Origin: Aphelidium insulamus
Lineage: Eukaryota > Aphelidiomycota > Aphelidea > Aphelidiaceae
Assembly (NCBI GenBank): GCA_036784855.1
Contig: JAZDSV010000007.1
Span: 310,001-374,000 of the forward strand
Direction: 5' to 3'
DNA length: 64,000 nucleotides
This document shows positions 1,515 to 60,503 of this stretch, one piece after another. The notes beneath the pieces were generated by a model that made no database searches, had not been told where the DNA came from, and saw only the letters and a list, made by a program, of their open reading frames with translations. How positions within the stretch are numbered: position 1 is the stretch's first letter; the number at the start of each line of letters is the position of its first letter. The translations under genes were made by a program, and so were the position numbers.

Positions 1515-3998
1515 GTGGAAACCTTTTTCTGCCGCTGCGTGTGCAAACAAACTTCTCCGCCGCCAACTCCGCCAACAGCGATAACCGTAGAGACAACGAC
1601 AACAACGGCAACAATGACCACAGGTGATAGCGCTGTCGGCGTTGTCTCCGGCTCTCCGGCACCGCCCGCCAACACTGATGTCGTGATCGAAATGCCCAAC
1701 AATGTCCCGACGGAACAAACTGCCCCCGCCGACGTGGATCCGAAGCATGAGGCGCAAGTGGCGTCCGCGGCCTCACTGGCCACCTCTAAACAGTCGCTCG
1801 AGATTGCCATTCAAGATATATCATTCCGGGTCAAAGTGCCTAGTAAGCGGGCGGAAGGGCAGAGCAAGCGCACCAAAGTGCCCATGGTTGACAAAGTTAT
1901 TCTGTCGGGGATCACCGGTGTGTTCCGTCCCGGCAAGCTTACGGCGGTCATGGGCGCCTCTGGCGCTGGCAAGACCAGTCTGCTCAATGTTTTAGTGTGT
2001 AGTGAATCGTTATTGTTATCAAAGTTTGCCTCCTAATTAACTTGCAGGCCGGAGAGGTCAGCGGAAGCGGAGTGGGCGGCAAGTTGCTCATTAACGGTGA
2101 ACCGATTGCCACCGGGAAACAGATGAAGGAGCTGTCGGGATTTGTGTTCCAGGACGATGTCATCTTGGGTAGGCAAATACAGTAGATATCACCAGCGCTT
2201 CTTTGGATTTACCCACAGACACCATGACCGTGCGTGAAGCGATCACAATGAGTGCCAAACTGCGCCTGCCGCAAACAATTTCAATGGCCGAGAAAAATGG
2301 CCGGGTCGACGAATTGTTGGCCATGCTCCGACTCACAAAGGCTGCCAACACTATAATAGGAAATACCACTGTCAAGGGTATTTCGGGCGGAGAGCGAAAA
2401 CGTACCGCCCTTGCAATGGAGATGGTCACAAATCCAGATATTCTGTTCCTTGACGAGCCGGTAATTAATCTTATAACTTGCATTGAAGTATAAATACTCA
2501 CAACATATGCAGACTTCCGGTTTGGACACGTTTACCGCATTCAACGTGTGCGACATCCTGCGCACTCTGGCCCGGAGCGGACGAACAGTTATTGCCACCA
2601 TTCACCAGCCGTCATCCGAAACTTTCCATCTGTTTGACGACTTGTGTTTGCTGTCTGAGGGTCGTGTGATGTACTGGGGCCCCGTAGAGGATCTGGTTTC
2701 GTACTTTGCCGGACTGGGCTACCAGTGCCCAACCTATACCAATCCCGCAGATTACGTGTTCATGTCCATTCTGAACACGGAGAAGCAGGAGATCAACCCC
2801 GATTCAGCTTTGAAAGCCATGGATGCGGACAAGGTTCGCATCTCTGGCCTGTTGGACAAGTGGAAGGAAGGCGATCGGAACAAGGTACTGGTGGAGCAAG
2901 CACACCGCCCACACGATAACAAGGGCTTTACGAAATCCGCCATCAAGTACCGATCGGATTTCATGACGCAGTTCAAGGTGAGTGGCACACAATTGCAGGA
3001 AGAAAGTACTTAATGATAACAGTACCTGTTTGGACGCGCTGGTCGAAATGCCATTCGAAACAAATTCATCATCCGAGTCAAGCTTGCACAGTCATTATTC
3101 ATTGCACTACTTATCGGTCTCATCTACTTGGACCTGCCCTCTCAGAATATCATGCAGCAGAAACAGGCATGATTACCGTATTAATTTATATTTCCCGTAT
3201 TAATTTATATTTCACTAATGTGATAGAACTTTACCGGAAGTATGTTCTTCATTTGCGTCAACATGGTCATGGGCTCGTCAATTGGTATATTGAGCATCTT
3301 TTCTCTGGAAAAAGCCGTATTTATACGTGAGCACACTAATGGCTACTATTCGTTGATTGCCTATTTCATGTCCAAGACAATTGTCGAGGTAACTCTAAGC
3401 TTGAAATATCCGTCAGTGTTTGCTAAGGCAGCCAATGTAGTTACCACATCAAGTGATCTTTCCGTTCATTCAGTCGGCAATCATATTTTTCATGGTTGGA
3501 TTCAACAACGACCCGGCGTACAATTACATCATATTCGCGATTATTATCATGTTCTTGGGCATTTGCGGCTCGGCTCTGGGAGTGTTCTTTGCCTCCCTGT
3601 TCCAGGATTTGACGGTGGCACTTGCGGTCACACCAATGATCCTGTTGCCGCTCATGATCTTTTCGGGCTTGTTTGGTAATTATAATACGAACTTGACGCA
3701 TCATTATTAATCATTAGTGAACAACGACGCTATTCCCGTGTACTTTGACTGGATAAAGTACATTTCCCCGATCAAGTACGGATTCGAGGCCATGTTCAAG
3801 ACGCAGTTCAATTCCAAATGGTCTGTCGTAGATCCGATGCAGGGCAAATATGACGGCGCCAGGATGGAGAAGGAGTTTGGCTTGAACGACGGTATCAGCG
3901 TGGCCAGCCTGTTGTTCATCCTGCTCGGAATGTACATTGGACTTTTGACGTTGGCCTATCTGGCACTGCGCCGCGCAGTCAACCAAAAGACCAAGTGA
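1515..3998 (+). CDS. ABCG-family (White-type) half ABC transporter
   Basis: Eight exons: 1515-1994, 2048-2168, 2219-2460, 2513-2977, 3023-3166, 3227-3388, 3441-3675, 3718-3998. Half transporters of this family dimerise in a membrane and move lipids, sterols or pigment precursors. The nucleotide-binding domain comes first: Walker [12 protein letters not shown], the [15 protein letters not shown] segment (joined by splicing), signature SGGERKR, Walker B ILFLDEPTSGLD and the H-loop IATIHQPSS. Six membrane segments follow, including [17 protein letters not shown] and the C-terminal [20 protein letters not shown], with the conserved [12 protein letters not shown] stretch. The intron at 3167-3226 has a GC donor; the family motif NFTGSMFFI is restored only by that junction. 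A Met at 1614 is an alternative start. The substrate cannot be told. Confidence 0.93.
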
Positions 3999-4118
3999 GC
4001 TGGGGGTGAGATCAGTCGGACAGAAGTCATCACAGATCAATACAACTAAACAATTGGCTATATTTGCACTGCTTGCTGTATGCATCTTGCTGTATGCATT
4101 GAGCATTTAGCGAGCCTT

Positions 4119-11592: not shown

Positions 11593-14500
11593 ATGGCCGA
11601 CGGCTGGTCCGGCGAGTCTGTGCGCTTTGCGGACGTTGTGGCGGTACTGCAGCAGCTGTCCACGCCAAACAGTCGTCACAAGACAACAGCTCAGCAGACT
11701 ACCGAGGCCAACAAGGCGCTACTGCGACGATTATTCCAGGCACATGTGGCTGGGGATGGGGATCGTGATCATTTACCAGCTGATACTGATTACGCCCTGC
11801 TCGCAGTCACTGCGCCGCGATGACCCAAACAGAGATTTGCACGCCGTAGTGCGTCTGCTACTCCCGCAGGCAGGTGCATGATGTGTCGCGCGGTGACGTG
11901 TCGCTGCCGTGATTGACCGTGGCTGTGTCTTCTGGCAGCTGGACGATGTGCGGCAGGGCGTGCTCCGCCTCAAGGAAGTCAGTCTGGCCCAGGCTTACAT
12001 TGCATTCCTCTTTCCCGGAAACCCTGGCTGCGCCGATGCAAAGTCTCTGCTGTACGTTATTTAAATATGTGGACATGTGTCCACCTATCAGTTGAAGTAA
12101 TAATCATTAACTACCAGGCGTCCAAATGGTCCAAATAATGCAAGTCGCTTTACATCACTGTACATACAACACTCATAATATAGGTCGGTGGCGATCTTGC
12201 CACGCGGCTCTACGATGTGCTAATTGATCGGGCGCCCATTGCGACGTTGGACGAGAGCATGCTCACTGTTGCCGATGTCAATCGTGAGCTGGACTCTCTA
12301 TGCACACAGCATGGCCCCAATGATGACGCCAATGCCGAACGGAGTAAGGGCCGTCGTGATCGCGTCGTGCAGGTGCTGCGGTACTTTTTTGAGCGCGGCA
12401 GTGCGCTGGAACAAAAGTGGATTGCGCGCATTGTTTTGGAATGTAAGCAACTGATGTGTCTACTCAGTGGGTAATCGACAATCAGTTATGCGGCTCGGCA
12501 TTTCGGATAGAACAATTTTGAATGTGTATCACCCGGACGCCGTCAAGTACTACACTTACCACAACAATTTGGCGGCACTTTGTAAAACGTTGAGCAATCC
12601 GGCGCTTCGTGCACCGATAATGGTAGGTTTAAAATGTACAAGTATTTACATTGATTTGCAGAAAATAAGGCTGCATGCACCGTTCAGCGCCATGAACTTG
12701 AAAAAGGTTTTGCCATATGAAGTTGAAACGGTGATGAAGAAGCAAGAATTTTGGATAGAAGACAAACTGGACGGCCATCGAATGTTTCTCCACTTTGAAA
12801 TGCAGGGAAGTTCGGACAAGTTTACCTACTTTTCACGGTAAGCATTCATTGAAGTACTATATACTTACATTACTCAGCCACGGCACCGAGTACTCCAGCA
12901 CTTATGGACCGTCACGTTCAATGGGTCTCTCGGCAATGCTATATCCCGCTATTACTGCACAAACAGTGAAATCGTACGGGTACCAGCTTGCATTAATCGG
13001 TATTGACATTTTGTAGATTGATTCTTGATGGAGAGATGATGGCGTACGACACGAGTGAAAGGTGTTTGGTTCCGATGAGTGCATCGCTTGGAGGAGGTTC
13101 AGACGGAGCACTGCCTCAAACCGGTCAAAGATGCTGTATGTTAATGTAGTGTGACCACAGTTTAACTTCACATGAAAATGTGCAGACGTCGTATTCGACA
13201 TATTGCATTTGAATGGCACGGATTTGACTGGGTATCCTCTGAGGAAGCGGCGGGAGTTTCTCGAGAAAATTGTCAAACCGAAGGAAGGATTCATACAAAT
13301 TGTTCCATACGAGAAAAAGGTTGGTGAATACTCGCACTTTGTCATCTAAAATGGATTGCAGAAATATACCACGGACGATGTAGTGTCTAAAATGGAAGAA
13401 GTCCTCAGCGAGAAAGGAGAAGGTGTTTGCGTCAAGAATCCGGAAAGCCAGTACACGGTCGGCGCACGCGGAACTAGCTGGCTAAAGCTGAAACCCGACT
13501 ATTTCTCGTCTTTGGGAGAATTCTTTGACTGTATTATCGTCGGTATGATTTTGTTTTGCATTCATTTGCACCTCAACTTGGCACAGGTGCGTCATATGGT
13601 CGCACTGTTCGATTGTTGAGTCATTTCATTTGCGCTCTGCGGGATGGAGACAGATGGGTGGCTTTCACGAGATTCGGCACCGGGTTTTCGTATGAAATGC
13701 GTCGCGAGATGACAAAACGTCTGCTTCCTCACGCCAAACCCTTCTATTGTGACGATACCACGGCAAGTCAATCGTCCTTGCCTGGCAAGAAGCGTCCTAC
13801 GAATGTGCCGCACTGGCTTTCGATCGGAAGCGAATTGCCCGAAGTCATATTCACTGACCCTTCCTCCTGTTTGATGGTGGAGCTGAAGGCCACCGAGATT
13901 GTCAGGTCTCAAAATTACGATTCCGGGTGGACGCTACGCTTTCCCAGAATGATTCGACTACGTGACGATAAGCACCACACAGAGGCAAACACCTTGCAGG
14001 GTACGATACATGTATACAATGTTCAGTTTGAACTCACTGACAGATCTCTGCCAAATGGCCCAGAACGGTATGAGCGCCAATACCGTGCAGCTTTTACGCA
14101 GCAATGGCGAGCCCGTGACTGGCAAACGGCAGAAAGTAAACAAATCGCCCAGAGCTGCCAAACAGCTCTCTCTGAATCGTTTGCCGTCGGCCTATAAATC
14201 AGGTGTTCCACCAGGTGTGTCGGGAACCGGAAGCGGAAAGAAAAAGTTATTCCTAGGCATGCATTGCTGCGTAATGTCCGATTTGGACACGAAACTGCAC
14301 ACCAAGGCAAAGTTGGAAAAGATCTTGCGTGACAATGGAGCAACCGTCGCGATGATGCCCGTCGCAGCTACGCGGTACGTATTTGTAGGCAAAATGACTG
14401 CCCGAGTCGATGCGCTGATCAAGGCGGCGGCCGTGTCCGATACCGCTGAACCCCCGCGTAAAACAGCCAAGCTTGTCAAAGCCAAGCCATCGTTCCAGGG

Positions 14501-15192: not shown

Positions 15193-16591
15193 CTACTTTG
15201 ATTTCTGCTGCTTGCCCAGAGCGCGCTTGCGAGTAGCCTTTTGCATTTCTGCGTAAAACATATCTTGAATTGAATCTAATCGAACGATATGGTTTCACTA
15301 TACGTATTTACCGTAAACCTTTTGAAGCAGCACGCTGGGCGGAACAAACGTCTGCGCGGCCCAGCACAGCAGGTTGTGCACTGGGTACGGTGTGGAGAAT
15401 ATCTTGCACCCAACGCGCTTCAAAACACTGCGCACATAGAGCGCCGCCGTAGGCACCACGGCACTAGATTTGCGAATCTTGCTCATATTCGAGACCTGCG
15501 ATAATCAACGACTATGACCGCCAGTATCATTTAACAACGTATAACCTACCACAAAAAATGTGTTGAGCAGCTCCACGTGCACGCCAAACGGCTTCACTTC
15601 CGCCGACAGGGACTCGGACCACAGTTTCAGGAAGGACTTTGTCCCGGAATACACTTGCAGGAACGGGGTCGGCACCAGGCCCGCAAACGAACCGACATTC
15701 AGCACCAGACCGGTCTTGCGCTCCAGCATGCCGGGCAGAACCATGTGTGTCAGCTTGAGCACAGAATTGATGTTGACCTCCACGATCGCGGAGATCATGT
15801 CCATGGACTCTTCCACGAATGGAGTTGGTAATGAATGGCTCACGCCCACATTATTGACTATGAGGGTACAATATAGTCATATTAGAGTGTGTCAGAGTAA
15901 TCATGCGTGCCTAGCATGTAGATATTTAGCCCGTCCAGCGCCTTCTTGAGCGCAGCATAATCAGCACTCTGCGCCTGCGAGAAATCGAGTGCAAAGGTCT
16001 TGACCGTGACATTAGGATACGAAGAAGCTGTGGCGATTAATGAAGGTGACCATGAGTTCAAAATCATTAAATAATACGTTTAGTAACATTTCACATACTA
16101 ATCTCGTCAGCCGTGGCCGACAGCTTGGCCGGAGTACGCGACACAATAACCAAGTTGAAGCCAATTTTCGCCAGTTGCAGCGCAAACTCCTTGCCAATTC
16201 CATCCGTGGCTCCCGTGATTACTAATGATGATGACTAATCAGAAGGAAGTAATTGATTTGGTACTTGCCGGCATAAGTGCTTCCAGTCGCGTACTTTTTC
16301 AACTATGATTATCGTTCCACGCTTAGATATGGATTAAACGAGCCAGCATATGCACCTACATTGATGCCACGCATAAAGTGGTTCTCGTAGACCACGCGCA
16401 GAAAGTGGGAAAGGAATCGCGCGGCGCCAAAGAGACCACACACTGCCAAGGCCAGTACCCAATTAGGGTGCAGCTTGCACAGATCTGAGCAGCAGATTAG
16501 ACAAAGAGAAGTGTAGAGTAACTCTGGCGGGAATACACGCAAAACCACGAGGCAACGCGTGTGCAGACTCACCGTCGAAACTTGCCGCCAT
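15193..16591 (-). CDS. HSD17B12: Very-long-chain 3-oxoacyl-CoA reductase (HSD17B12/KAR type)
   Basis: Eight exons on the minus strand: 16591-16573, 16484-16360, 16302-16269, 16221-16099, 16027-15911, 15857-15550, 15495-15312, 15263-15193; 326 aa, the usual length. It is an ER short-chain dehydrogenase that reduces 3-ketoacyl-CoA in fatty-acid elongation. An N-terminal membrane segment precedes the cofactor motif [14 protein letters not shown], then VNNVGVSH, the catalytic serine in LNVGSFAGL and the YSGTK pair. The C-terminus is lysine-rich (ALGKQQKSK), which may act in ER retention. Introns 16222-16268 (GCAAGT) and 15858-15910 (GCACGC) need GC donors; the second has no GT nearby. The gene is divergent from uS14m with 61 bp between starts. 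Confidence 0.92.
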
Positions 16592-17889: not shown

Positions 17890-18661
17890 ATGTTGCTGTT
17901 TGATCCGCTGCTGGCGATTCCACCGCTGGCTCCGGTGCGCCTTGCTGCTAATGGTGATACTGGTGCTGGTGGTGGTGGTGGTGGTGCTGGTGGTGGTACA
18001 ACTGATGCCAGTGGTGCCGCGCGCGAATATGTCCGCCAGCACTATCCGCCACATCTCCGCCTGCGCTTTGTTCAATTCATCCACCGTCACGGGGAGCGCA
18101 CACCCATCCGTTCATGTATGTCATGTCGCAGTGTATACATATGCATATGCATGGTATATGTATTGATATCGTCACGTAGACTTGCCGTCGCACGTCTCGC
18201 CCGTCTGGACCCTGTGCTATGCCGCGTCCACCTTTGTATGTGTACACCATCTACATATACAACACATGACACGCTGACTGGCTGCTGCAGCACGCATCCA
18301 TGGCCAGTCTGCAGTCGGAGCAGATGCGGCACGGTAGCGAGTCTGCACGCGCTGCCCACCGACACACCCAGTCACACCCGGCTGTGGAGGGCACAGCCAC
18401 ACGCAGCGGCGGCGGCGTTGACGATGTACTAGTCACAACCACCACCACAACCAGTAACAACCGGCCTTCCATCGCCACGGGCATATCTGCTGCCAATGCC
18501 AACAGTGTGGGCCCTGTGCAGAAGCGTGTGGAAGATGTGGATGCGGGCAGTGGCGGTTCGCTGGCACAGCAGTCGCCCCTACAGCCCGGCCAGTGTCTCT
18601 TTGGCCAGCTGACAGACAAGGCATGTTGGTGAAAATAATTGTAGTGCGCCTTCTCTCTCTA

Positions 18662-18709
<48 letters not shown>

Positions 18710-19804
18710 TATGTACTGACTGACTGAATGTGGCAGGGACGGGAAACCCTATTCCAAATTGGCAGCGGTTTGCGGCGGCTGTACGTGGACGAGTTGGGAT
18801 TCTTGCCGGCCGCATTCAACGGCCACATTGCCACCAAGCAGTTTTACTTTCGCACCACGGACTATCCGCGCACCTTGGAGGTAAAAATAGTATACATGGT
18901 ATTATTTTAGTTTACCCATGTATCCACGTAGAGTTTGCAGCACCTGATAGGCGGCCTGTATCCGGTAGAGAGCCGTGTGGCCGGCACGCCACACCCGGTA
19001 ATTCACACGCGGTGGCCCCACGAGGAGACAATGTACGGCGACGGGCGGTGTAGGCGCTGGCGCACACTGGTCAAGGAGTTCAAGGACGCCTATCGGTCGC
19101 AGCAGCGCCTGCACATTGACTCCATGAAGCAGCATTTCGCGCGCCTGCTCGCCGACGAAGCCAAGCCGAATCTGCACGCGCTGTACGACACGTTCATTGC
19201 GCAGTACGCGCACGGCATACCGCTCCCACGAGAACTCGCCGATCCGGCCGGCAAGTCACTGTTTCATCTGGAGCAGCACGCCAACAGTCTCTGGTTCGAC
19301 GTGTACCGACAGCGTCAAGAGGCGGCCAGATTAGGCATTGGGAGGTTTCTGGCAGAGCTGCAGACGGAACTGCGCCATGTCGCCCAGCCTAAAGCAAAGT
19401 CGTCTGATAATGATGGCATCGACATGAAGATGTCGGTGTACTCTGGCCACGACAGCTCCATAGCGCCACTGGTCGCCGCACTCGGTGTGTCTGACGGACG
19501 GTGGCCAGCCTTTGCATCCAATGTCACGCTGGAACTGTTTGACGTCGTGTCACCCAGTAATGACCACTCTGGCAAAGCATTTACGGAGGACAAGCCGAAG
19601 GCGCCACAGCAGGCCGTGCGCGTGCTCTACAACCATCGGGTGCAGACTGTGCCGCACTGTGCAGAGCAGCCGGATCGCCACATCAACGGCGAGCCGACTC
19701 TGTGCACGCTGGAGGCATTTATGGATCTGTTGACGCAAATGATTCCCGCCGACTACAAGAAGGAGTGTGGCACTGCGGCGTCAGGCGATGATGGCGCCGA
19801 CTAA
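17890..19804 (+). CDS. ACP6: Histidine acid phosphatase, ACP6-like (lysophosphatidate phosphatase)
   Basis: Five exons: 17890-18115, 18180-18235, 18291-18620, 18737-18880, 18932-19804; 542 aa. ACP6 enzymes are histidine-branch phosphatases that dephosphorylate lysophosphatidic acid, in mitochondria in animals. The catalytic N-terminal motif is RHGERTP and the C-terminal HD pair lies in YSGHDSSIAPLVAALG. Closest resemblance to ACP6 comes from FGQLTDKGRETLFQIG, RRLYVDELGFLPAAFN, FRTTDYPRTLES, DGRWPAFASNVTLELFD and the LEAFMDLL...YKKEC end. A glycine run and a Ser/Thr-rich insert are peculiar to this gene. Intron 18621-18736 has a GC donor (AAG|GCATGT) and contains a TA microsatellite. The open frame begins upstream at a non-ATG codon; the first Met is at 17890, so a missing 5' exon with a targeting signal is possible. 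Confidence 0.85.
18660..18708. repeat. (AT)n microsatellite in an ACP6-like intron
   Basis: About 48 bases of alternating A/T with one G interruption lie inside the 116-nt third intron, making it about twice as long as its neighbours. The variable length would change intron size only. Confidence 0.9.
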
Positions 19805-21339: not shown

Positions 21340-24188
21340 TTAATCACTGCCATCTGCGGTCAGCTCCACAGTGACATTGCACACCATTATGACGCAGTAG
21401 AGGCAGATTAGAAAGGCCCCATACTGCGACGTGCCTCGCCATCCATTTAGTGGTATGACAACTATGGAGCAGCATAGCGCCACCAGCACGCCCACCGCAG
21501 ACGACATCAGTACCGGGGTGAACTTCATTGGGTATGGTTCGCCATGGCGGATGTTGTAATATGTTGACGAGAAGCCGATGCCGAGCAGGATGTCTGCACA
21601 CACATTAGTGTACCATGACACTCCTACAGCCACGTACTCAGCATCGGGCCGCCAAAGCAGGCAGCCACGGCCATGTTGGGGAATCCCATTCGGGCCACCG
21701 ATATGTCGGCCACCATGTCGCTCACGCTGTTGCCAATCGCAAAGATGGTCAGACCCAGGATGGCGTCGCTGATATTCATAATCAGTCCTAGTGCTTGCAG
21801 AATGGACACGACTTCATTCGCAATCAGGTAGATCCATATCACCGCTGTCAAGAATCCCGCGAAGCAAATCAACTATTAGTCAGTGATAATTGTTAACTAG
21901 TCCCGATAACGTGCCGTAAACCATTTAGGTCGTTTGTAGGCATCGGTGAAAAAGTACACAGACAGCCAGAGCAACGCACCGACGATCAATGAAAACATTC
22001 CCCACGTGAATGAGCCTCCATCTGCCATTGGCTCCATCCAGAAATCAACGCCCACCAGTACAAATGATAATGAAGTCAGGCAATGGCACAGAAAGAGCCA
22101 TCGTTGCCACGGCGGTAGCTTGGAGTTCAGGTAGCGGTTGACGGCTGCATCGCGTACAGAGTCCACAGAGTTTTCATGGCCATCAGAAGCGGCAGCAGCG
22201 GTGCTCCACCTGACAAGAAAAATCTCCTTTTCAATCTGCCTTATGCGGTCCATCTCATCTTCCTTTTCAACGTCTACCGCGGGCACGGTGAGCGTAAGCA
22301 GCAGCACTGTGAGAATTGTTTTGTAAGTTGGGCGGTTCAGTTGAATTGAACAATACGCACCTGGAACAATTGACAGGATGCCGACGACTTTCTGCATGAC
22401 AGTCAAGTCCCAAAAGTCACCGGCAATAGGCAACAAGTGTGACAGGAGGTGCGTGTGGAAAGGAGTGACGATCTGTGGCGCCGTCCTCCGTTGAGCAACT
22501 GTTGCTGTGCTGGTTGCGGGGTACGCGCCATCGCCATCCATACCAGGCTTGTCCGCGGGTACCGGAGAGAGAACCTTGGTGTAGCCCACGGCGTCGCGAT
22601 TCCAACCCAGACTTGGAAAGGAGGTGAGAGCGACATTGTTGGAAAATATGGGCGAGGAAGACAATGATGATGCGAGATAGTTTTGTGGAATCGCGTCATC
22701 CAAGTGCTCTACTTCTGGCGGTGGTGGAAAATCGTCTGTAGTGATGGCGAATATCGACCGCGTCGGGCTGATGGGTACGGGTTTGCTGGCAAAGTTTGGC
22801 GAGCGGGTGCTACTGGGTGCGGCCGTGGATCGTTGAGTAGAAGTTAGCACAGCCGGGGAAGACAAATTTGCAGAGGCCGGAGATTTGTCGACAGTCGGTA
22901 CAAACGCTGTACTACACAAGGTTACTATGCTGCTCATAAGGAAAATTATCATCAAACCTCATGGTTTTATGTTTGTTGAACCACGGGTCATAATCATTGG
23001 TGGCCGTGTCACCGAGAAACAATCCATGTGGAATGCGCTTCCCAGTCCTACCACTCCTATAAGCAACACATAATAATACATTAACCACTTGCTTCGACAC
23101 CGCAGACCCACGCCGTCCCATATCGGCACCGTCAGTGCGCTGTTCCGGCGAGACTAGCGGCGTTGAATCATCGTGCGAGTCATGCTCATAGACCGTGTGC
23201 TCGGCGCCCTCGATAAGTGCATTCTCGTTGCTTTCGGCGTCCAGCTGAAGCCACTGTTCGCGCTCTCTGCGGCTCTTTTCGAGATTGCGTTGCCGCGACC
23301 GCTTGAACATGTACCGCCCAAACCCCACCGAGAACACATACAAGCCATAGTAGGTCATGAGCAGCAACGATTCCGTCAGCGTGATCAACCCGTCCCACAG
23401 TACAAATATCAAGAACATGATGGCCACCAGGAAGAAGCAAACGTCGCGTGTGAATGGAATCGGCGCAACCTTGAATCCGGCAACAATAGCCACCAGTCCC
23501 ACTACGACGGTGGAGATGAAGGACGCGGCGCCAAGCAGCTCCCCAACGGCAAGTCCAAAGTAATGTTGCTGCATGGCATTGAATGTAGAAAACATGTCGG
23601 GCGCGCCGTTTCCTAGCGCCAGAAACGTGACTCTGCAGTAGTTGACACATCATTGTTAAGTATAACATAGCTAACACCAGTACCCAGTCATGTTCTCTGT
23701 GAAAAATATCGTCAGTCAGAGGCACATGAGATAATAGCCACATACCGCTCAGGCCCAGCAGAGTTGCCATGGTGTTCAAGTTGGGACAGAAAAAATCCCC
23801 GGCGGCGGTTCCAATAAAGAGGAACAGAAATGCCAGCATAAACACCAGAGCAATGACGTACAAGAACCTTGCCAGACCGCTGCCGGCCAGCTGGCAATAG
23901 TACACGTCCAAGTAGTGAACAATCTGCGTATCCGTAATGAACTCAGAGGTAAGCCATGTAAGCCGCCTACTCCCACAGCAGTATCGGCACAATGCGTTTG
24001 CACATATGCGCACGGCGACATGCCCTCCGGGGCCGTGCTGACTGCATCGCACTGGCGTACATTGAGCATCGCTTAGCTGTTGTATGCTGCGTACTTGCCT
24101 CGCTAGCAGCCACCAAGCCGGGGTGCACTGCTACCAGTGATAGAAGTAGCGCCAGTAGGCAACCGCCCAGTCGCCTCTGCAGCAACAT
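21340..24188 (-). CDS. SLC8B1: Cation/Ca exchanger, NCLX (SLC8B1/CCX) type
   Basis: Ten exons on the minus strand: 24188-24099, 24051-23977, 23941-23746, 23696-23684, 23632-23093, 23056-22958, 22911-22361, 22306-21915, 21872-21638, 21593-21340; 814 aa. The family exchanges Na+ (or Li+) for Ca2+ and NCLX does so in the mitochondrial inner membrane. A signal-like leader is followed by the CCX cysteine segment ECDAVS...CAYVQTHC. The alpha repeats are VTFLALGNGAPDMFS and TIFAIGNSVSDMVADI with AACFGGPMLNILLGIG. Between them is a long Ser/Thr-rich cytosolic loop (~250 aa). Exon 4 has only 13 nt. Introns 24052-24098, 23057-23092 and 21873-21914 have GC donors. Intron 22307-22360 is 54 nt and free of stops. 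The organelle of residence is not shown by sequence. Confidence 0.9.
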
Positions 24189-40694: not shown

Positions 40695-42297
40695 ATGGCT
40701 GACAATAATAGTGGCGCAGCATCTTCTCGGGACATGACAGTTGGTTCCGCCGCAGCAGAAAGCGAGGAACTTGCCATGCTTCGAGACATGTTCCCCGCGG
40801 TGGCGGCTGACGTGCGACAGCTGGTGCTGCTGAACAGCAATGGCAATCTGGAGCTGGCCATCAACTCACTGTTGATGATTGCGGCGTCACCAGAACTGTC
40901 AGCACACATTGCCAGTGCCGCCTCGCCGATAACAGAGGGCTCATCAGCAGCAGCAGCGGCTGCGGTGACATCTTCGAGGGAATCATCACTGGCGCTGCCT
41001 GGATCTTCACGCCAACACGCCAGCTCCAGATCACCGTCTCCATCGACAGTCAATGCAGCCTCCAGCAGGTCCGAAATATCACGCGGCAAGCTTCCATACA
41101 CTGGAGACAGTGATGTTCTCGTGGATGTCTTTGCTGCCGATGACAGGGCAAGTATCCATCACGATATGCATCTATCTAGTATTGACAATGCATGTGTAGG
41201 ATTTGCCAACCAATATTAGAATTACCGGCACCTCTACGCCGGCATCACAAATACAACAAGATGAGGCGATGGCACAAGCACTAGCGCTAGCCATGCAAAT
41301 GGAGGCACAGGAGGCGGAAGATGCAGCCAAACTCGAAGTGCTCAACTCTTCACTGATGGACATCACAGAAGACTCGAATGACGATGTCACAGAGTCGACT
41401 GGCCCGGCGGCAAAGGCAGCGGACCTGCTACGAGGCATGCGCAACAGTGTGCGCAATATTATCACACCGAAATCATCGCCGGCGCAAAAGACGAAGCCAA
41501 TGTTCTCTGGCTCGGCGGTGGATGAATGGTTCAACAAGCGTGGACAGGGCGAGAGAGGCATAACAACTACCGACAGTAGCACAGCAGCAATGCCTGACCT
41601 GTCCAAGCTAAAGGAGAGGTTAAATAGCGCCAGTAGCGGTGCGTGTGCATTTATTTATTATCTGACTATGTATAATGCACTATGACACTTTATAGCCACG
41701 CGGGAGAAGGCACGACAGATGTTTGTCAAAATACAGCCGGGAAGTGGTGCAGCGACGCGCTTCGAGTATGTTTCCTGCAGCTCTACTTTTCTATATTAAC
41801 GTGACAGTTCACTCACCTCGCCCGATGGCTCAACCGCTGCTCCCGCAAATAGCAGTGAGTTGCCACTAGTGTCTCCATCGTGATACAATGCCACATGTAG
41901 CAGATGGAGCCGCTGCATTGGTTACCGTATCAAGCAGCAGCACTGACGACCCGGCGGTGCCCACAATCGACTTGATGATGACGGAGGGAAATGATGATGA
42001 AATGCAGCACACTTCACCCATCACCGACGCCAAGTTCACCACCACGATATCTAGCACGGGCGGCGCATCACCCGCAACCACTCCACGACGTCAAGCATTG
42101 TCGCCACTCATCATCCGCAACATTATATCACAATCAGCCGGACAGTCAAGTGCCCTGTCCACTGCGGCCGCAGTCTCCACTCCCCACTCGGCCCAGTCCC
42201 CGTTCCTCGAGGCGCAGTCGAGCACCGGTGAGTTTATGGCTGTGTTGGGTGCATGTATGATGCATACTCTTACCGGGCAGACTTTGAAGAGCAATAA
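40695..42297 (+). CDS. CUE-domain protein, Ser/Ala-rich
   Basis: Six exons: 40695-41147, 41200-41638, 41696-41765, 41808-41854, 41901-42227, 42281-42297; 450 aa. The CUE domain (ELAMLRDMFPAVAADVRQL ... NGNLELAINSLL) should bind ubiquitin. After a Ser-rich linker comes RDLPTNIRI and the charged helix IQQDEAMAQALALAMQMEAQ, a pairing seen in CUE-domain adaptors. The rest is disordered, Ser/Thr-rich, and ends SSTDFEEQ. The first intron has a GC donor (AGG|GCAAGT). The last exon carries 17 nt, and its stop codon overlaps the polyadenylation-type AATAAA at 42293-42298. The partner is unknown. Confidence 0.8.
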
Positions 42298-43021: not shown

Positions 43022-45087
43022 ATGCATCACCGCCAATTGGTACTCACGCTTGCGTACGCGCTGCTTGTCGCGGTGGTGTCGTGGACAGCAGGTACTGCGG
43101 CCGTGGACAGTGGCACATTCCCCGTCTCCCCGTCCCCGCCAGATGCGGGCTACTTTATCCGCCTCCATGGCTCGTTGGGCGGAGATGCCGTTGCCGCCGC
43201 CGCAAGCACCGACCAGCCGGCAACGACACGCGCTGCAAGGCGTCAGCGTGTATACGATAGACTGCAGGCAGTCACCAGCCACGTGACTGTGCCATTCATT
43301 GCCACCCTGGTGTCGACATTCGGTGTGGCGGCCGCGGCCGACGTGGAAGTGTTTTGGATCGACACCATGGTGTATGTGCCGGCTATGGTTGTGCGCCGCG
43401 CCGCCCTGTCGGCGTACCATGCCCAGCATGGAGTGCCCGATGATACTGTAGATGCCACTGGTACTACTGGTAGCGGTGGTGACGGCGTGGTCCAGTGGTG
43501 GCTGGGTCAGTTGCGGGCACATCCGCAGGTGAAGGACGTGTTCCCCAACCGCGTTGTCGCGTCAGTGCACGTCGAGTCTGTCGGCGAAACAGTGTCCGGT
43601 GCAGACAGTGTGGCCTGGGGCGTGGCCAAGATGCGTGCTCGACAGTGGCACGGGGCAGATGGCCGCGGTGTGCGCGTGGCCACAATTGACACGGGTGTCC
43701 AGTGGCAGCATGAGTCCCTGCGACAGTCGTACGCTGGCAGCCCAAGTGATATTTCTCCCGTCGACCGCATTACTGCGACCGCACCCACAAACTCGACCTT
43801 GTCGCCGCACGATTACGCCTGGTTCGATCCGCTAGAGTTCCGCCGCGACCCGTGGTGGTGTCCGTGGTACCCGGACCAGTGTGCGCCGCGTGAATGCTGT
43901 CTCGATGAGCCATTCGACGTTGTGGGACACGGCACACATGTCACGGCCACGATTGCCGGGTCGGCAGAGAGTGGAGTTGGCGTGGCGCCCGGTGTGCAGT
44001 GGATGTCGGCCAAGGGTTGCCGCGATGGCAACTGTTTCTTCTACGGTCAGCAATGACAGTGATATCTGCTGAAACACAGACAGCTGACATTGTGCTTGTC
44101 GCGGCATAGGGCTTACAAAGTCGGCGCAGTGGGTGATGTGTCCGTCGCGCGTGGGTGGCACCGATGTCAACTGCGCTCTCGGCGCCGACATTGTCTCCAA
44201 CTCGTGGGGCAGCAAAGTTTACAATCCGAACGATGACTTTTACTACAAGTGTGTACATTGACTTCAACTTGCATATCGATTGTCTTATTGTCGTGTCTTC
44301 TTGTCTTTTGACTGAGTATTTGAATTGTGTTTGTTCCTTGAATACATATATTGATAGACTGCTAGGTATATAGAAGTGTGGCGAGAGGCCGGCATTATTC
44401 CCATATTCTCGAATGGAAACAGCGGTCCGGATTGTGCATCCGTGTCGGCTCCCGGTGCTTTCAAGACTGTTTTCGGCGTGGGTGCCACTGATTCGGATGA
44501 CGCACTGGCACGCTTCAGCAGTCGCGGCCCTGGTCCGTATGAGGAGCCTGCGGCACATTTAATTTCGCCCCGCCGTCACTCCGACGCCCCATTTGAGCAG
44601 CTAACCATGATGGCTGCACGCACAAAGTCGTCTGAAAGCATGTACGCTCGTCTGAAGCCTGATTTTGTTGCGCCTGGAGTGCAAATCCTGTCGGCCAGTT
44701 CGAAAGATGTACAAGGCTACCGCAACATGTCTGGCACCAGCATGCAAGTGACATTGAAAATTATGTCAATTCGTTTAGATTCTTGTTTAACCGTACAGGG
44801 CCACGCCGCACGCAGCTGGACTGGCGGCGTTGATACTGTCGGCACTGCAGCAGCGAGAGCCAGATACGTTTGTCTCATTCGAGCGCCTATACGATATAAT
44901 GCAAAACAGTACGGTCCAGGATGTTCCTGTGCCAATTGGTGGTGGAGGCTCCCCAATTCCCTGGCTGCCCGACCTGCCATGGACCAGGGACCAGTGTGAT
45001 GGCAGCCGCTGGACTGCTTGGCCCAACCTCTTTTACGGACATGGCCGTCTGGATGCTGTGCTGGCCGCTGCGGCGCTTGGCAACTAA
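43022..45087 (+). CDS. Secreted subtilisin-like serine protease (S8)
   Basis: Four exons: 43022-44045, 44110-44250, 44377-44743, 44799-45087; 606 aa. A signal peptide (LVLTLAYALLVAVVSWTAGTAA) is followed by a ~180-residue propeptide-like region. The triad is Asp223 in ATIDTG, His303 in GHGTHVTA, and Ser510 in GTSMATPHAAG, with oxyanion Asn in NGNSGP. DIVSNSWG and DFVAPGVQILSAS are further family motifs. The intron before the last exon (44744-44798) splits the Met codon of GTSM and has a GC donor (CAT|GCAAGT); reading through would replace the end of the catalytic block. The 44251-44376 intron border is my best fit among overlapping GT sites. An extracellular digestive or processing role is likely. 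Confidence 0.9.
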
Positions 45088-48426: not shown

Positions 48427-50860
48427 TCAACGCCACAGATTGCACTGTGTTGGAGGCGCCATAAAAGAGCCTGCCGGGCATTTCCACACTGTTTGAAAAT
48501 CATCGCTCAATGCAAATGCAGCATTTGCTCTGACAGAGTTGATTGTGTGCTCATAGCGCATCTTAAATCTGTTAGTGAGGAAAGTTGGTTATCAATGACT
48601 TGCCTCCGCCGCTTGAACCTCGTCAACACTGCTCTCGCACCAGTACTGGCTAAATCCCAGCCAGAAGAGCTGATCATTAGTGATGCCGTTCAGGCCCGGC
48701 AGATTGCCCTGGTTGATTTTATCGCGGAGTTGCTTATATGCATCCCAGCTAATCTGCAGACCGCTGTTGTCGGCAATGTTCTCGTCCAAGGTGAGATTTC
48801 CGTCGACGTGGTCTCCAGCACTTGTGTAATTAGAATAGTGTGATACAAAGCATTTGGCGCGTTCAGTGTGTCTGGCGGTTATATCAGCTGAAAATAAACT
48901 AGAATATTCTCCCTGGCTCGAAAATTTGATCCCGTTGGCGTCAAAACCGTGAGCGATCTCATGACCCATTATCGTGCCAAGTGAGCCATATGCAAGCGCT
49001 AGAGATGCATCGGCGTCAAAAAAACGGGGATGAAGTAACCCCATCGGTAAAATGAGCATATTAAGTGGTGCAAAATGAAAAGCATTGGTTGTCGTCCAGT
49101 CATGTGCCACCAGTATCGAAGATCGTCTATATAAAGCAGGAGCAATAGCAAACTCCCAAACGTTTTTCTGCATTATTTCACCTGCCAACGTGAAAGCAGG
49201 ATTACTATCCTGTGCATGCCCAAGAGCTACAGAGTATAATTTGGCTGTAAAGTTGCTGTCCGTGGCCTCATTGGGAATAGCGATTTCGATAATCATGGAT
49301 TCCAACTTTGAAATTGCAATCTTGCGCGAGGGGTCATCAAGCCATGGCACAATGTCGACAGATAATAACCGCTTTTTGAATGCATCACTAAGGTGCTGAA
49401 GCATATTTATCGCCTTGCTTTGAATTCCTGATATTAAGTGTAAGTCACGATTATTAAGGTAAAGGGTTTGCTCACCTGGAAGCACCGTCTCGTAATATGC
49501 ACGACCAACAAGTAGAGAATACTTTTTTGCGATATAATCGACACAAATTCGCAGTGGCCGTATTTGATCGCCAGATGCTATTTCGTCACCAATATATCCG
49601 TCGCCTGTGTGTGGCAGTTTGACCAGGCTCATTGTTGACGAGGCCTGATTAAACATAATCATCGCAAGGCGTAAAAGTATCGAAATCCTAGCATATTCAA
49701 CCAAGGTATCGGCCGGAGTTATCTGAAGCAGATTGTTCAGCTCCTCCAGTGCAGCCGCTGGTACTGATACTTTTTCCGGCATGTAGTCCGATGTAACTCC
49801 ATGTTCCTTGATAAACAATTCCCAACCACCTAGCAGATAACCCGAGCGCGACATCAAATTTGGAAACAATTGATCGAGTTGCACCAGCGACAAGATTTCA
49901 TTCCCGATGCTACGGTCGGCATAAGCTACAATTTGATAGACGTTTTGGCTAAATATCGCGATGCGATTAGCTAAATCCGAAACATCACTATTTGGATAAA
50001 TTCGCCGCAGAGGATCGTAGATATCCTCGTAATCCGAAGGAGCAATTACAGCCGGCAACACGATCTCGGGAGCAATGGCGGCGCTGTTATTGTAAAGTTC
50101 GAAGCCAAAGAACCAAGGGTTGATTCTTTCCTTGACCAAACTTGTGTCCATAAGTCGAACTTTCGCGTGGACGCTATAATAATCATCTTCGAGTCGGATA
50201 AAGTTGATGACATAATTAATTGCATCATGAAACAACGGGCCCAGCAACAATGGATTATCGCCGATGTTCATCCGGTCGTTGCAGTTGCGGAATGCCCGAC
50301 GAACCGTATCGAATTGCTGTTTGAACTGAGGATCAGTTTTGTAGATTTGGCGCTCGAGTTCTGCGTCGCGATCACCGTTGAAAATGCGAGCAAGCTCATT
50401 TTGGCGATACTGGTTCAGCAGTGTAAATGTCGATGTCACGCCGCCCAACGAAGGAACGTAATTCGTGTTAATAAATCCGCGGCATGCGTACAAATAGAAG
50501 TTGTCACACGGATCCACAGACGAGTCCATATAACTCGCAACTCGGGCACCTGCGATTACATCGGCCTTATCGTGCCCGTTTGACGCACTCTCCAGGAACT
50601 GCGACGTTATAAGTTGCGGTCAATGGCTCATAAAGAGTAAGTACACTCAATTTCCCGCTCATCTTGTGCAGTAAGACTGAAAGCACCACCACAGTAATCA
50701 ATGACGCAAACAGTACCACAGCTGTCACGATACGCAAGATAGTTGCGCGTCTAGAGTGAAGTTGCACTTCCGGTTTGGTTCCATGCGTGTTGGGTGCTTC
50801 CATATTATGGTAGCCATTATCGGTGGATTTCACGTGTTTCATGGTCGACTTGAGAAACAA
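48427..50860 (-). CDS. M13 zinc metallopeptidase (neprilysin/ECE family)
   Basis: Exons 50860-50587, 50549-48604 and 48561-48427 (minus strand), ~784 aa. It is a type II membrane protein: a short cytosolic N-terminus, one helix (RIVTAVVLFASLITVVVLSV), then an ectodomain starting with SSVDPCDNFYLYACRGF. The zinc site is GHEIAHGFD with the glutamate in NLTLDENIADNSGLQI; VNAFY-like substrate binding reads TNAFHFAP. The last exon holds the conserved end (TINSVRANAAF, then KCPAGSFMAPPTQCNLW) and is reached only through the GC-donor intron 48562-48603. The first intron (50550-50586) is also best explained by a GC donor, which restores a conserved cysteine; a GT alternative (55 nt) exists. Mets at 50842 or 50803 may be the start. 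It likely cleaves extracellular peptides. Confidence 0.92.
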
Positions 50861-54875: not shown

Positions 54876-54963
54876 TAATACAACACACGCATGATGTAAA
54901 TTGCAATATTTCAGTGAAAGCGACGACCGTTTAATTATAGAGTCAATTTGCCGTAAGCGACGC

Positions 54964-57900
54964 CTAGTAGCCATTGTACTGTGGCTGTTGCATGCCTCCA
55001 AAACCTGGTGCCGCATAACTACCGGTGTTTTGCATTTGATATCCGCCGTTTCCCCACGCGGGACCAGCAGTGAGCATTAGCGGCTGTCCTGGAAGTCCCA
55101 ACGGTGCCATGGCGCTCATTTCTACAAAAAGTAAGTATAATAATCAAGGCACGCCAAATATATCAACGCACCTTGTTTCTCCTTAATTTCCTCCTTCTGC
55201 GAGCGTTCCTGGTTCGCTTGCTCCAACTGATCCACTTTGCCAACATATTCGCGAGTGACCTGAATTACGTACGGCATGGCAAAGTCCAGCAGGCGGTGGC
55301 GCCATGCAATTTCCAACACCACATCAGGACGCAGTAGATCGTAGCAGATGTAAAGACATGCGGCAAAACTGTCTCTCAGGCCATTGTCCACAAAGAACGC
55401 GATCAACTCCTCGGCAACCTCGGAATCGCGAGATTCTGCCGCAGTTTCCATGGCGTCCTTGTAGAGCTTGTCCTGTTTCGACAGGGTGACCGACTGCTTC
55501 CAGCGACGGTTTTTCTGCAACAATCAGCTGATGCAAAACACATAGTAACTACCCTACCTTGTACAAGTGCGCCGATATGCGACGGAACTCGAGCAGCTCA
55601 TGCTTCTCCAAGCGCTGAGCCAAAGCGATGTTGTCGAAATTATCGTGATGGTCAATGGAGTCGCGAAGAGTCTTGTAATCTTCCTCAACAATAAGCAAGT
55701 CGTTGTACGCGCTGTTCACCGCGGCGTTGTTGACATTCTGCACGGCTACCAAGTACGGCTTGATCAACGGCAAGTTGTCGGTCTTTTGAAACAATTGCAC
55801 AACGCGAGAGTGGTCAATGCGGGGCGTCAAAACTGCCAGCAGGTCGCACAAGAGCAACGGCTGTTCGTCCACGTAAAAGCGCAGCGACTACGTGGTGCGA
55901 TTAGTAACATATATGACAACATATACGGCGCCACAACTTGCCTTGTAAAAGATCTCCACATTTGAAACCTTGACAATCACATCTTTAAACTGCTGGTGGT
56001 CAAAGGCCTCGGCAGAGTGGCCAATGATTGTCAGTGCAGCGTTATCGTACTCGTCGTACTGCACGTAGAGAAACACCAACTCTTTCCACAGGTGTGCCGC
56101 ATCGGCCGCGCGAATAACTTTGGGGATGTTGATGCGCGAGTAGTACAACTTCAAGTGGTCCATCAGCTTCTCGGTCTTGTACTTGGAGTACATGACCGCC
56201 AGTTCGGTGAACATTCCCATGTGGGCTCGCTCAAGCGACAAACCGGCTTCCAGTAGCTGGATGAGCTCATCAAAGAAGCCGCGGTACTCGTACAACCGAA
56301 TCAAATCGGCCAACTCTTCCGCATGAATGACCAAGTACAGACCGCAGATTTGAGCCAGGCGGAACTCTTGGTTCTCAACACACGCGACATTGACCTCCTT
56401 CCACACACGAGTGCTGTTTGCCTTGCGTGCACAGTCCACTGCCGACTGGAACTCATTCAGGTATACCAGAGTGGTGGCCAAACGTGCCCAGTTCGACACA
56501 CTATTGAAGAGGATCTTGGCTGCCTCGTACATTTTCTCCTCAAAGCAGCGCTCACCCACAATGGCGATCTGAGCGACATTCGGCGAATTGATAAACTCTT
56601 CCAAATCGGCAAGCCGGTTGACCTTGGCCAGAGCAAACACCAACTCGGACTCGACAGTCGGCTCACGGGCAGTTTTGCGGGCCATTTGCAAGTAGCGCAC
56701 TAGATCGTCAAACTTGTTCTCGCGGTTCGAAACGGCAATAACTTCGCCGTAATTTGTCGCGTCATCAGCGTGTATATACGAGTCCACAGCCTCCTTTAAT
56801 AGACCGGCGTCCAACTGCGCCTTTGCGAGCTTGCTCCAAACCGGCGGTTGGTTGCAGCGCTCAGCAAACTCGAATCCACGGTCAAGGCTCTTCAGATTGT
56901 CGAGCAGCACGGCAATAGCTTCCGCGTTGACTTCGTACTTTTTGTAGATGAAAAATGCCTCTTCAAACAGTTCAGCGCTGACGGCAATGCCCGCAATGTC
57001 CATGTAGTCAAACCCGTTCAGCTTGGTAACGTAGCCCAGAACGCGAGACGAATCGGCCTTGATGGCGGTCAAGATCAAAAGATTCTGCAAGTTGCGATTG
57101 TCGCTAAACACCGAATTCTCCAAAACAAGCTTCTCCAAGAGTTCGATCAACTCGGTCGGCAAGTCCGCCGCCATAAACGCCTTCACGGTGAGCGACACAT
57201 CCTCGGGGTCTTGTGATTCAGGAAGAGCCGTAGCCACCACTTGATCCACCAAGCTGCGACGATACTGGTTCTCTTGCGTCAAAACCATGGCCCACAGAGC
57301 TGGGTCGCGCTTCTTGACAAGATAACGCGCCTGGTGCTTAAACATGGAATTCTCGTTGGTCACTTGAATCAGTTCAGCGTCGCACTGTCCCTTCTGGTAC
57401 ACCACAAAGGCCAAGTATGGGTCACGCTTCTCGCAGTACTTTCCAATCAGGCGCGGGTCATACATCTGCAGGAAACGATCAGCCGTCATGCAGTATCAAT
57501 AAGATGAAAAAAGTACTCACATTGTTCTCCTTCAAGAACGCTTCGGGATTGTTGTTGGAGTCAATGTAAATCTTGGCGAGAGCGTTATACACGGCAACAT
57601 CCTGGGCTCCATCACGGATTCGAAGTTCCAAGAAGGGCAGCAGAAGCTTCAAGCGGTTGCGCTTCTCCACTTCTTCCACGAGCACATCGATCGGGATCGG
57701 ACTGCGCACAGAGAGAAGCAAGTTCTTGACGATCGTCTCGTCACAGTCAACATCCAACAGAGCGCCGATAACAGCGGGCGTGCGGCTCGGGTTAACCTTC
57801 TGCACGTAGATCTCAATGTACTTCGCCAAATTGTTCTGATACAGGTAGAGAACAAGGTCGTGGACGAAATCAAAGCGGTCACAAACAATAATCAGCGGCA

Positions 57901-60503
57901 ATTGGTCGGTCAGCTTGGCCTCCTATTATAAAAGTTAATATGGCGGTCGCACATGAGGTACAAGCAGTGAACTAACCTTCAAAAAGTTCTTGACCTTTTC
58001 GGCATCGTAGCAATTGCTCTCGCGGCAAATTCTCTCCACCTCCTTCAGCTGGCCAGTGCGGCACGCGGCCTGAATGTACTTGAAGTGCACAACAGGGTCC
58101 TGGCTAAAGTTGACAATCGATCCCAAGTAGTAGTAGAGACCCTCGAACGACTTGAAGCCCTCAAACATTTCAATTAGCTTGACGGCGCCGATTTGTTCCG
58201 TGTATTTGCTGGCAACTTGGACCACAATCTGCAAGTTCTGACGAATGTTGTTGGTCATCATTTCGCGCAAGCACTCCAACGACTGTTCCATGGACAGGCG
58301 ACCAAAGTAGTTTACCACCCACTCCGGGTTCAGAAGGTTGGTGTGGATAATGGTGCGCTTAATGTCGTAAATGTCGGTGTAGTGCTCCAGAGCACGCTGG
58401 AACAGACCGGCTTTCTCACACAGCGCTGCAATGCGGGCACGGTCGTAGTGAGTAAACATCTCATTGCCGAGAATGGCGTCGGCCACTTGAGGTGCTTGCA
58501 TCAAGTTCATCTCGAGCAGTTTGGTCTGCAAGTGTCCCTGCTCGGGCTTGTTGTCTTTCAGTGCATCGAGCAGGAAGGATGTAGCCTGTTGCACCATATT
58601 TTGTCCCAAAAATATGTCGACAATCTGTTCCAGATCGACACGGATCTCCGGATCGTTGACTACCAGCGAGGCAAACTCATTTCCCTTCTCCGGGTCCAAA
58701 CGCATGATGGTCTGCAGCAGGAACGTGTAGTCTGGCTGGAAACCGACCTTTTTGGCGTATAAAATAATCTTGGAGTACTGGCCAGTCTCGGCAAAGCACT
58801 GAATAACCTTGTTGGGAACATTTGCACGCAAGTACACCGACAGTGCCAGGGTCAAGTCGTGCTGCTTGACAATGTCACCCAACTCTTCGCTGCACTGCAG
58901 CTTGTCTTCCTTGAGCCACTTTTCCAACAGCTGCTTGCGGCCCTGAAGGAGCACGGGGCGAGCCAGCTCCAGCGTCTCGACCTTGTTCAGTGTACCCTTC
59001 TCCAGCAGGATGCCAAAGTACTGCAGAATGGGGGACAGCTGTCCCTGCTGTACAGGGATTTGCTTGAAGCGCTCAATAGTCTGCGGTGTACGCAAGATGC
59101 CCTAGAATATAAGTAAAATGATCATGCAGCATGATAACAACGCACCCGCGGGGAAGTTGCGGCAACCTTGGCGGCCTCTTGAAAGTTTCCTTGCTGAAAT
59201 AATTGCATGAAGCGAGTTGCGTAAATATCATCTGCGCCAGGCAAGTTGTTGCGCGACGCCAGACGAATGGCCAACTCGGCATTGTTCAGCGATTTAAGAA
59301 TGAAGGGAACAATGGTGGCTTCATCGACGCTCACAGAGAGAACCTACCGAGTCAGCACATGCACATAGAAACGAAAGCTGCTCACCTGTCCTTTGCGGTT
59401 AACGCCAATTAAGCCACTGGTGGGATCATAGTCAGCAGTAACGAAAATGGTGTCACCGCTGATACGGTTCATGTAGATGCATGCGCCCGTCTCCAAATCG
59501 TATAAATGAATGAAGCCATACTTGGTCACCAGGAAGATGACGTCATACTTTTTGCTAATCTGCATCGCCACCGGAAAATCATTCAGTGCCTCGGCGGGGA
59601 AAAAGACATCCACGGCCTTCTTGGTAAACGGCGGGTTGGGGTCCTTGTGGTCGATTTCAATGATGTGCAGCTTTGCGCCAGTGGTGGATCGGTTGGCGAA
59701 AGCAAAGACGCTGTACGGATGGGGTGCACCATCGATTTTAATCTCGGCAAAGCCACCAGCATGTCCCTCGATGGGCTGGCTGACATTTCGCTCTTTGCTA
59801 AAGAGCTGCATGGCGCCCACAACGCGGCCGGCCTGCAAAAATCAAATGTCAGAACGCAGATACCCATCAAATGAACGATAGTATAACTTGCCTGCGCCGA
59901 AATTCCAACCAGCAGTAGCCATTTCTCATCAGCGCTGGTGCGATAGTTGATAATTTGACAGCCGGTCAGCGAGGCGTGACGATCAAACACTTTGGCGGGC
60001 TGAGAATCGCCCTCCATGGACCAGTGGTAGACGGCGGTCTCGCTGACGATACCAACAGTGTTGACCGAAATCCACTTCCAGAACACCACATCCTCTGCCA
60101 TCAGGTGCGCCTTCACCTTGGCCTTCATTTCAATGTTGAAGATTTGCAGCTGGCGGCCGGCTGGACAACAGTTTACATATAGATATGAACATCTCATTTG
60201 ACACACCTTTGAGCGCAATAACCTTGGATACGGGGTTCATGATGGCCGAGTCGGCGGTGATGGGGCGGCGGATAAGGTTGGTCGGGTCGGCCATGTCAAT
60301 GATGACCACCTGGTTCTGCTCGCCAACCTTTTCACGGACGCAGATGAACCGGTCCGACTCCATGGTCAGGGTGTTGAACCCAATGTTGGCCGCATTAATC
60401 CCCAGCGATTGCAGCTGTACACATGTCAGTGTGGAGAAGGGCCGAGAGGAGTGTAGCTTGCCTGTAGGTGCTCCTGGAACTTGATGGGAATAAGCTCGCC
60501 CAT
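54964..60503 (-). CDS. CLTC: Clathrin heavy chain
   Basis: Eleven exons on the minus strand, ~1690 aa, full length. It forms the triskelion of clathrin coats at plasma membrane, Golgi and endosomes. The seven-blade terminal domain opens with [19 protein letters not shown] and contains [17 protein letters not shown] and YLYDLETG-type [18 protein letters not shown]. The leg repeats are intact ([57 protein letters not shown]), and the QLMLTAGP-like tail reads [12 protein letters not shown], ending QQPQYNGY. Introns 60415-60461, 59833-59891 and 55888-55941 have GC donors; at each the conserved protein is continuous only when the GC border is used. The Met at 60503 sits in the expected place. Confidence 0.97.

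Follow-up and report, generated by a model that had tools for sequence, protein, structure and literature searches.

A eukaryotic genome of ordinary G+C content in which about 15% of predicted introns begin with GC

About one in seven introns predicted in the eukaryotic genome analysed here, or about 15%, begins with GC instead of GT and ends with AG. The window examined most closely is the 64,000 nucleotides at positions 310001-374000 of contig C139, in an assembly of 17,953,404 bases and 169 contigs; all introns reported here are predictions from genomic DNA, obtained with gene models and alignments to homologues. We think it probable that these introns are removed by the ordinary U2-type spliceosome, in which a C at the second donor position (+2) is likely tolerated when pairing with the U1 and U6 small nuclear RNAs (snRNAs) is good elsewhere in the donor. 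Judged by sequence, the organism is likely a relative of animals and fungi. Human EF-1A matches the genome exon by exon with 76-90% identity, and a mammalian clathrin chain aligns across query residues 1-1676.

Introns were scored as forward-backward posteriors by a purpose-written two-strand gene-finding hidden Markov model, which was seeded from 76 long open frames and trained for seven rounds on 264 kilobases (kb) of DNA, namely the window with flanks of 60 kb (before) and 40 kb (after), plus 100 kb of contig C1. Another 40 kb was taken from four other contigs in addition to this stretch. The neutral model required G at +1 and an AG acceptor and left the +2 letter weightless in every round. 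An NN-neutral model left +1 and +2 both unweighted, and the trained model permitted only GT and GC donors, which it weighted. With a posterior >0.9 as the cut-off for counting, the neutral model called 244 GT, 50 GC, 5 GA and 2 GG introns in the 264 kb (n = 301), C being the sole letter besides T above noise at +2 (A, 5/301; G, 2/301). The trained model called 324 GT and 49 GC introns (n = 373). Both models place the GC-AG share at or above 10%, the level of GC-AG-rich lineages (50/301 and 49/373, respectively). The neutral calls divide into 157 GT, 35 GC, 3 GA and 1 GG in the C139 portion and 87 GT, 15 GC, 2 GA and 1 GG in the C1 portion; for the window only, the neutral model gave 59 GT, 15 GC and 1 GG, and the trained model 75 GT and 12 GC. 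The NN-neutral model returned 87 GT and 30 GC introns, with eight further dinucleotides at 1-3 each. Summed without the cut, the neutral posteriors come to 362.1 for GT, 97.0 for GC, 36.9 for GA and 27.6 for GG. The cut was applied because noise is larger in these uncut sums. A held-out set of 65.5 kb, on ten contigs outside the training stretches, comprised 12 loci chosen by place or gene family and excluded eight loci picked by donor pattern. It yielded 43 GT and 6 GC introns with zero GA or GG under the neutral model (6/49) and 67 GT and 6 GC under the trained model (6/73).

When 50 GT donors were changed to GA and the model was retrained, 44/50 were recovered, which indicates that the method detects other +2 letters when they are present. 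With the C of 98 GC donors replaced by T, 292 GT, 5 GA, 3 GG and 0 GC introns were called at >0.9; this control flips false calls too and hence is no measure of the false-positive rate. Among donor-like decoys, C occurs about twice as often as A or G, so that about 7 of the 50 GC calls may be false. The share corrected for false calls is 43/280, or 15% (Wilson interval 12-20%), which agrees with the figure of about 15% given in a preliminary description of the window. The lowest of all the estimates is 8%, from the trained model on held-out DNA, and the highest is 20%, from the neutral model on the window. Median lengths are 53 nucleotides for GC introns and 52 for GT introns, and retention would shift the frame or add a stop in 48/50 and 227/244 of them, respectively.

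Alignments to homologues support 15 of the GC junctions. Compared with solved structures, the alignment is ungapped at the junctions in clathrin (three), CPSF73 (two), G-alpha, GMPPB, CYP51 and MLH1, as well as at 11870 in the ligase gene and 15858 in the dehydrogenase gene. Less clean among the supported junctions are ligase 12140, dehydrogenase 16222 and ABCG 3167. The M13 peptidase gene provides a further case. With 48562-48603 removed, its product covers the Pfam profile from 1 to 205 of 205 positions at 168.2 bits; with the intron kept, the match ends at position 160 and scores 140.4 bits, so that removal regains the last 45 profile positions. The aligned genes were selected for holding GC introns, and the alignments test the junctions, not the percentage.

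Positions +3 and +4 set the GC donors apart. A is found at +3 in 46/50 GC donors (92%) vs 149/244 GT donors (61%; p 6.5e-6), and at +4 in 31/50 (62%) vs 61/244 (25%; p 1.1e-6). Positions -3, -2, +5 and +6 lean toward a stronger consensus in GC donors (p 0.05-0.08), and -1 shows no difference. Ordinary GC-AG introns of animals, fungi and plants have a stronger flanking donor consensus, and the consensus found here, stronger around GC than in GT introns at +3 and +4, is of this U2-type kind. A TRAY branch-site-like motif occurs in 48/50 GC introns vs 185/244 GT introns (p 5e-4). The GC introns are AAGT-like at +3 to +6 and do not carry the ATATCC-like motif of U12-type donors (PMC3033335), the U12 snRNA itself not having been searched for. 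The +2 letter depends on how well +3 to +6 match AAGT: C/(C+T) is 2/37 with one match, 8/112 with two, 15/106 with three and 25/39 with all four, a climb from 0.05 through 0.07 and 0.14 to 0.64. The preliminary description had proposed that most GC donors read GCAAGT and that the donor rule is relaxed at +2. Half of them do so (25/50), and the relaxation holds for C in full AAGT donors (25 C, 14 T); donors with one to three matches keep mostly T at +2 (C share 0.05-0.14), and A and G stay at noise level.

Whole-genome motif counts, taken on both strands with coding sequence included and with each pattern read backwards as control, are supportive only. CAGGCAAGT has 325 copies (control 65; Markov expectation 203-244, order 2-4, from the 264 kb), CAGGTGAGT has 99 (control 126; expectation 95-125 on the same basis) and CAGGTAAGT has 60 (control 159; composition expectation 44-99, Markov order 2-4 giving 44-78), 4/60 of the latter sitting on U1 gene starts. 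Donors were called at >0.5 in the 264 kb at 4/7 copies of CAGGCAAGT, 33/252 of GCAAGT and 16/71 of GTAAGT. GT donors with at least six of seven consensus letters number 11 vs 20.2 expected by permutation. Selection against perfect U1 matches was considered here and rejected, since a truncation simulation without selection gives a like deficit (17.0 vs 24.5, cut at 3 matches) and the CAGGTAAGT count falls inside the Markov expectation.

Among the splicing factors, the preliminary description had pointed to the 5' end of U1 and to the U1-C and LUC7 proteins. Four U1 genes were found in the genome, and all start with AUACUUACCUG, a canonical 5' end; their matches score 42-44 bits vs the Rfam gathering score of 69.5, and a more divergent copy could escape. 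In the copies found, the change is thus not located at the U1 5' end. The single U6 gene found has a canonical ACAGAGA box. A changed U1 and a changed U6 box were both dropped as candidates on these findings. The two proteins yielded candidates only. One LUC7 gene was found in the genome (C28:7131-8005), and its product is closer to human LUC7L3 (36% identity, 147 bits) than to LUC7L2 (31%, 103 bits). The U1-C zinc finger (C32:10681-13776) has Trp at position 28. This position is Arg in human and Lys in yeast and sits at the duplex between U1 and the 5' splice site, and yeast K28A, read as weakening that complex, bypasses Prp28 (PMC3985668). Human U1 small nuclear ribonucleoprotein binds +2C better than +2A, and U1-C fine-tunes mismatched sites (PMC4383343). 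Strong U6 pairing marks the sites favoured by LUC7L and LUC7L2, and strong U5 pairing those favoured by LUC7L3 (PMC11732430). In Saccharomycotina, METTL16 and SNRNP27K associate with +4A (PMC10581693). A METTL16-like gene with an NPPF motif and a SNRNP27 gene both appear present here, and neither a missing METTL16 nor a missing SNRNP27 methionine was kept as a candidate. That methionine probably corresponds to human M141. The GT donors show their weak +4A preference (61/244) despite the presence of both genes.

Then, what would allow a C at +2? We suggest that +2C, opposite A7 of U1, would be a tolerated mismatch, and that better pairing around +2, above all from +3 to +6, would repay part of the loss. 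Once the loss is repaid, a change from T to C at +2 would be nearly free, and strong donors would drift toward having either C or T there. The step of which we are least sure, and which is speculative, is that the tolerance may come from a protein which stabilises the handover from U1 to U6 or proofreads it, with Trp28 of U1-C and the single LUC7L3-like LUC7 gene as candidates.

Several observations weigh against tolerance of +2C at the share given above, or against its protein candidates. The GC share is lower in the held-out DNA under both models, and the GA and GG calls imply that a few per cent of calls are false. One of the 15 neutral GC calls of the window, 3667-3717 (0.93 neutral, 0.73 trained), is wrong, as three residues are missing from the ABCG1 alignment at this place; by our reading of the sequence, a GT donor at 3676 restores them. 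The median predicted pairing with U1 is -4.1 kcal/mol for GC donors and -5.5 kcal/mol for GT donors, the GC donors reaching -7.2 kcal/mol when given U at +2. GC donors thus pair more weakly than GT donors, and the compensation through U1 is only partial. In yeast, growth is normal when the Yhc1 residues concerned are changed singly to Ala, and according to Kondo et al. these residues have no great effect on selectivity (PMC4383343). Changing Trp28 to Arg lifts the Pfam zf-U1 score by just 2.4 bits. From a LUC7L3-like factor one would expect a preference for pairing on the exon side (PMC11732430), whereas the GC donors show an intron-side pattern; the LUC7 finding is a lead only and does not predict GC donors that are strong on the U6 side. 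A more far-reaching proposal is that, at ordinary G+C and in a lineage near animals and fungi, +2 has become a free pyrimidine in donors with full +3 to +6 pairing and the full U1 complement, CAG|GTAAGT, is no longer enriched across the genome, because Trp28 of U1-C and the loss of the LUC7L/LUC7L2 class shifted the optimum of U1 pairing with the 5' splice site; the +2C mismatch would then be a welcome attenuator. We consider this proposal unlikely.

Tolerance of +2C by an ordinary spliceosome has to be weighed against other accounts. The GC introns could be mis-modelled, the real donors being nearby GT sites or the excised pieces being coding. The call at 3667-3717 is exactly such an error, two introns of the preliminary description (24052-24098 and 38201-38250) have posteriors of 0.18 and 0.40, and 22/50 GC introns have a GT-AG alternative at most 30 nucleotides away whose effect on the protein is no larger than two residues, as do 104/244 GT introns. 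Against this, the model blind to the +2 letter called 50 GC introns vs 5 GA and 2 GG, the 15 junctions supported by homologues speak for the calls, and a GT-AG pair yielding the identical messenger RNA is impossible for all 50. Among 17 GC introns in conserved genes, 13 have no same-length GT-AG pair within 45 nucleotides; the remaining four have one to three such pairs each, all changing junction residues, and pairs that alter the protein length by one residue are available for three of the 17. Taken as a whole, mis-modelling seems to us very improbable. We give equally little credence to the view that GC donors are retained for regulated or alternative splicing and not merely tolerated. Alternatively spliced genes of human, nematode and Arabidopsis show an enrichment of such donors (PMC2490688), but here at least one GC intron at >0.9 is held by 37/126 predicted genes, with three each in those for clathrin and CPSF73, and nearly all of the 50 would break the frame or add a stop if retained.

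The base composition bears on another account, in which G+C mutation pressure alone raised the GC-AG share, as suggested for G+C-rich algae. G+C is indeed high in those algae whose shares are greatest (PMC3033335). In our data the ratio GC/(GC+GT) is 0.51 in intergenic DNA and 0.36 within introns, and the C share of 0.64 in full AAGT donors means that C is no less frequent in such donors than in unconstrained sequence. However, G+C is 52% across the 264 kb, intergenic C (22%) is rarer than T (28%), and the published correlation is weak apart from three species (PMC3033335). We therefore regard G+C pressure alone as decidedly unlikely. A variant U1 snRNA in which G replaces A7 would pair with +2C and explain it directly, and no search for unusual U1 genes was made beyond the one described. 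All four genomic matches begin canonically, with the limit on divergent copies noted above, and a variant U1 strikes us as extremely improbable.

Each of the 19 intervals of the preliminary description, 17 offered as firm and two as tentative, has GC at its start and AG at its end on one of the strands. Thirteen of the firm introns were recovered exactly by the trained model (posterior 0.86-1.00; Table 1), and 48562-48603 stands by homology only. For 23057-23092 the donor was retained and the acceptor was not, the model preferring 23048 (0.87). Two are neither supported nor refuted, namely 24052-24098, at 0.18 vs 0.80 for a rival GT intron at 24042-24094, and 38201-38250, at 0.40. Both tentative introns were lost: a GT intron at 7950-8002 (1.00) fits better than 7950-7984, and 50550-50586 was not called by the model. 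Four further GC calls of the window were left uncounted: those at 3428, 14545 and 47724, with trained posteriors of 0.38-0.54, and the one at 11740, at 0.81. The warning that gene finders restricted to GT would break genes was borne out, with a clear practical effect: GT-only decoding changed every one of the 37 genes with a GC intron at >0.9 (37/37), and 10/89 others.

Table 1. Predicted GC-AG introns of the window and the support for each
Feature	Position	Strand	Support
GC-AG intron, ABCG transporter gene	3167..3226	+	posterior 1.00; ABCG1 alignment continues; two-residue gap four residues upstream
GC-AG intron, DNA ligase 4 gene	11870..11938	+	posterior 0.98; junction in ungapped alignment stretch
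GC-AG intron, DNA ligase 4 gene	12140..12183	+	posterior 1.00; junction about five residues past a small alignment gap
GC-AG intron, short-chain dehydrogenase gene	15858..15910	-	posterior 1.00; junction ungapped
GC-AG intron, short-chain dehydrogenase gene	16222..16268	-	posterior 0.86; junction at extreme start of alignment
GC-AG intron, gene presumed histidine-phosphatase-like	18621..18736	+	posterior 1.00, gene model only
GC-AG intron, gene presumed Na/Ca-exchanger-like	21873..21914	-	posterior 0.99, gene model only
GC-AG intron, same gene as 21873..21914	23048..23092	-	posterior 0.87 trained, 0.92 neutral; preliminary description, 23057-23092
GC-AG intron, gene presumed DENR-like	29139..29197	-	posterior 0.93; three same-length GT-AG alternatives with other junction residues
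GC-AG intron	41148..41199	+	posterior 1.00
GC-AG intron, gene presumed to encode a subtilisin-like protease	44744..44798	+	posterior 1.00 trained, 0.97 neutral
GC-AG intron near 3' end of M13 peptidase gene	48562..48603	-	missed by the gene finder (0.03); homology supports
GC-AG intron, clathrin heavy chain gene	55888..55941	-	posterior 0.99; junction ungapped
GC-AG intron, clathrin heavy chain gene	59833..59891	-	posterior 1.00; junction ungapped
GC-AG intron, clathrin heavy chain gene	60415..60461	-	posterior 1.00; junction ungapped

Other features of the genome were observed in passing. Adjoining short frames at 61459-62367 and 62949-63715 of the window, which we take to be subtilisin-like, are perhaps a tandem or decaying family. 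A predicted protein-coding region lies at 66-1240, and its product presumably resembles the ANKZF1/Vms1 release-factor domain. Elsewhere, the PK_Tyr_Ser-Thr profile matches at least 143 genome stretches, many in long frames and with neighbouring runs on C42, C86, C150 and C160, which suggests a kinase expansion, the profile catching many kinase types.

Lineages rich in introns that start with GC are rare. A compact genome with 52% G+C, in which U1 and U6 keep canonical pairing sites and +2C depends strictly on +3 to +6, makes the two simplest explanations less likely and reduces the question to a few candidate proteins. Among the papers listed by our literature searches, we recognised no report of a comparable GC-AG share in an opisthokont protist.

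The present introns resemble ordinary U2-type GC-AG introns in their GC donor and AG acceptor, and a GCAAGT donor is exemplified in GNAI1 (PMC5896119). They differ in number, as GT-AG makes up near 98% of introns in animals, fungi and plants (PMC7072748). The statement in the preliminary description that GC-AG is about 1% in most animals and fungi agrees with that source, but algae with more than 20% have been published: Iwata and Gotoh give 39.6% for Aureococcus anophagefferens, 22.2% for Micromonas pusilla and 7.7% for Chlorella sp. (PMC3033335). U1 is canonical in Aureococcus and two Micromonas, and the abundance of GC-AG was termed an enigma there (PMC3033335). Shared with our case are a GC-AG level far above 1%, a canonical U1 5' end and an unexplained cause. 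In contrast, Aureococcus, M. pusilla and Chlorella have the highest G+C contents among the 61 genomes compared in that work, whereas G+C is 52% here and the conserved proteins look animal-like. In the heteroderid nematode Globodera, 3.46-3.56% of splice sites are non-canonical, and the raised GC/AG is confined to Heteroderidae (PMC4901422). Here, too, a lineage-wide rise came without high G+C (36.7-38.1% in Globodera), whereas the share in Globodera is several-fold below ours. Eurytemora affinis and Oikopleura dioica likewise show a lineage-wide departure from T at +2, but in them GA-AG exceeds GC-AG (PMC7072748), whereas GA and GG are at noise level in our genome. We thus have a known phenomenon in a new lineage, with ordinary G+C content as the main difference.

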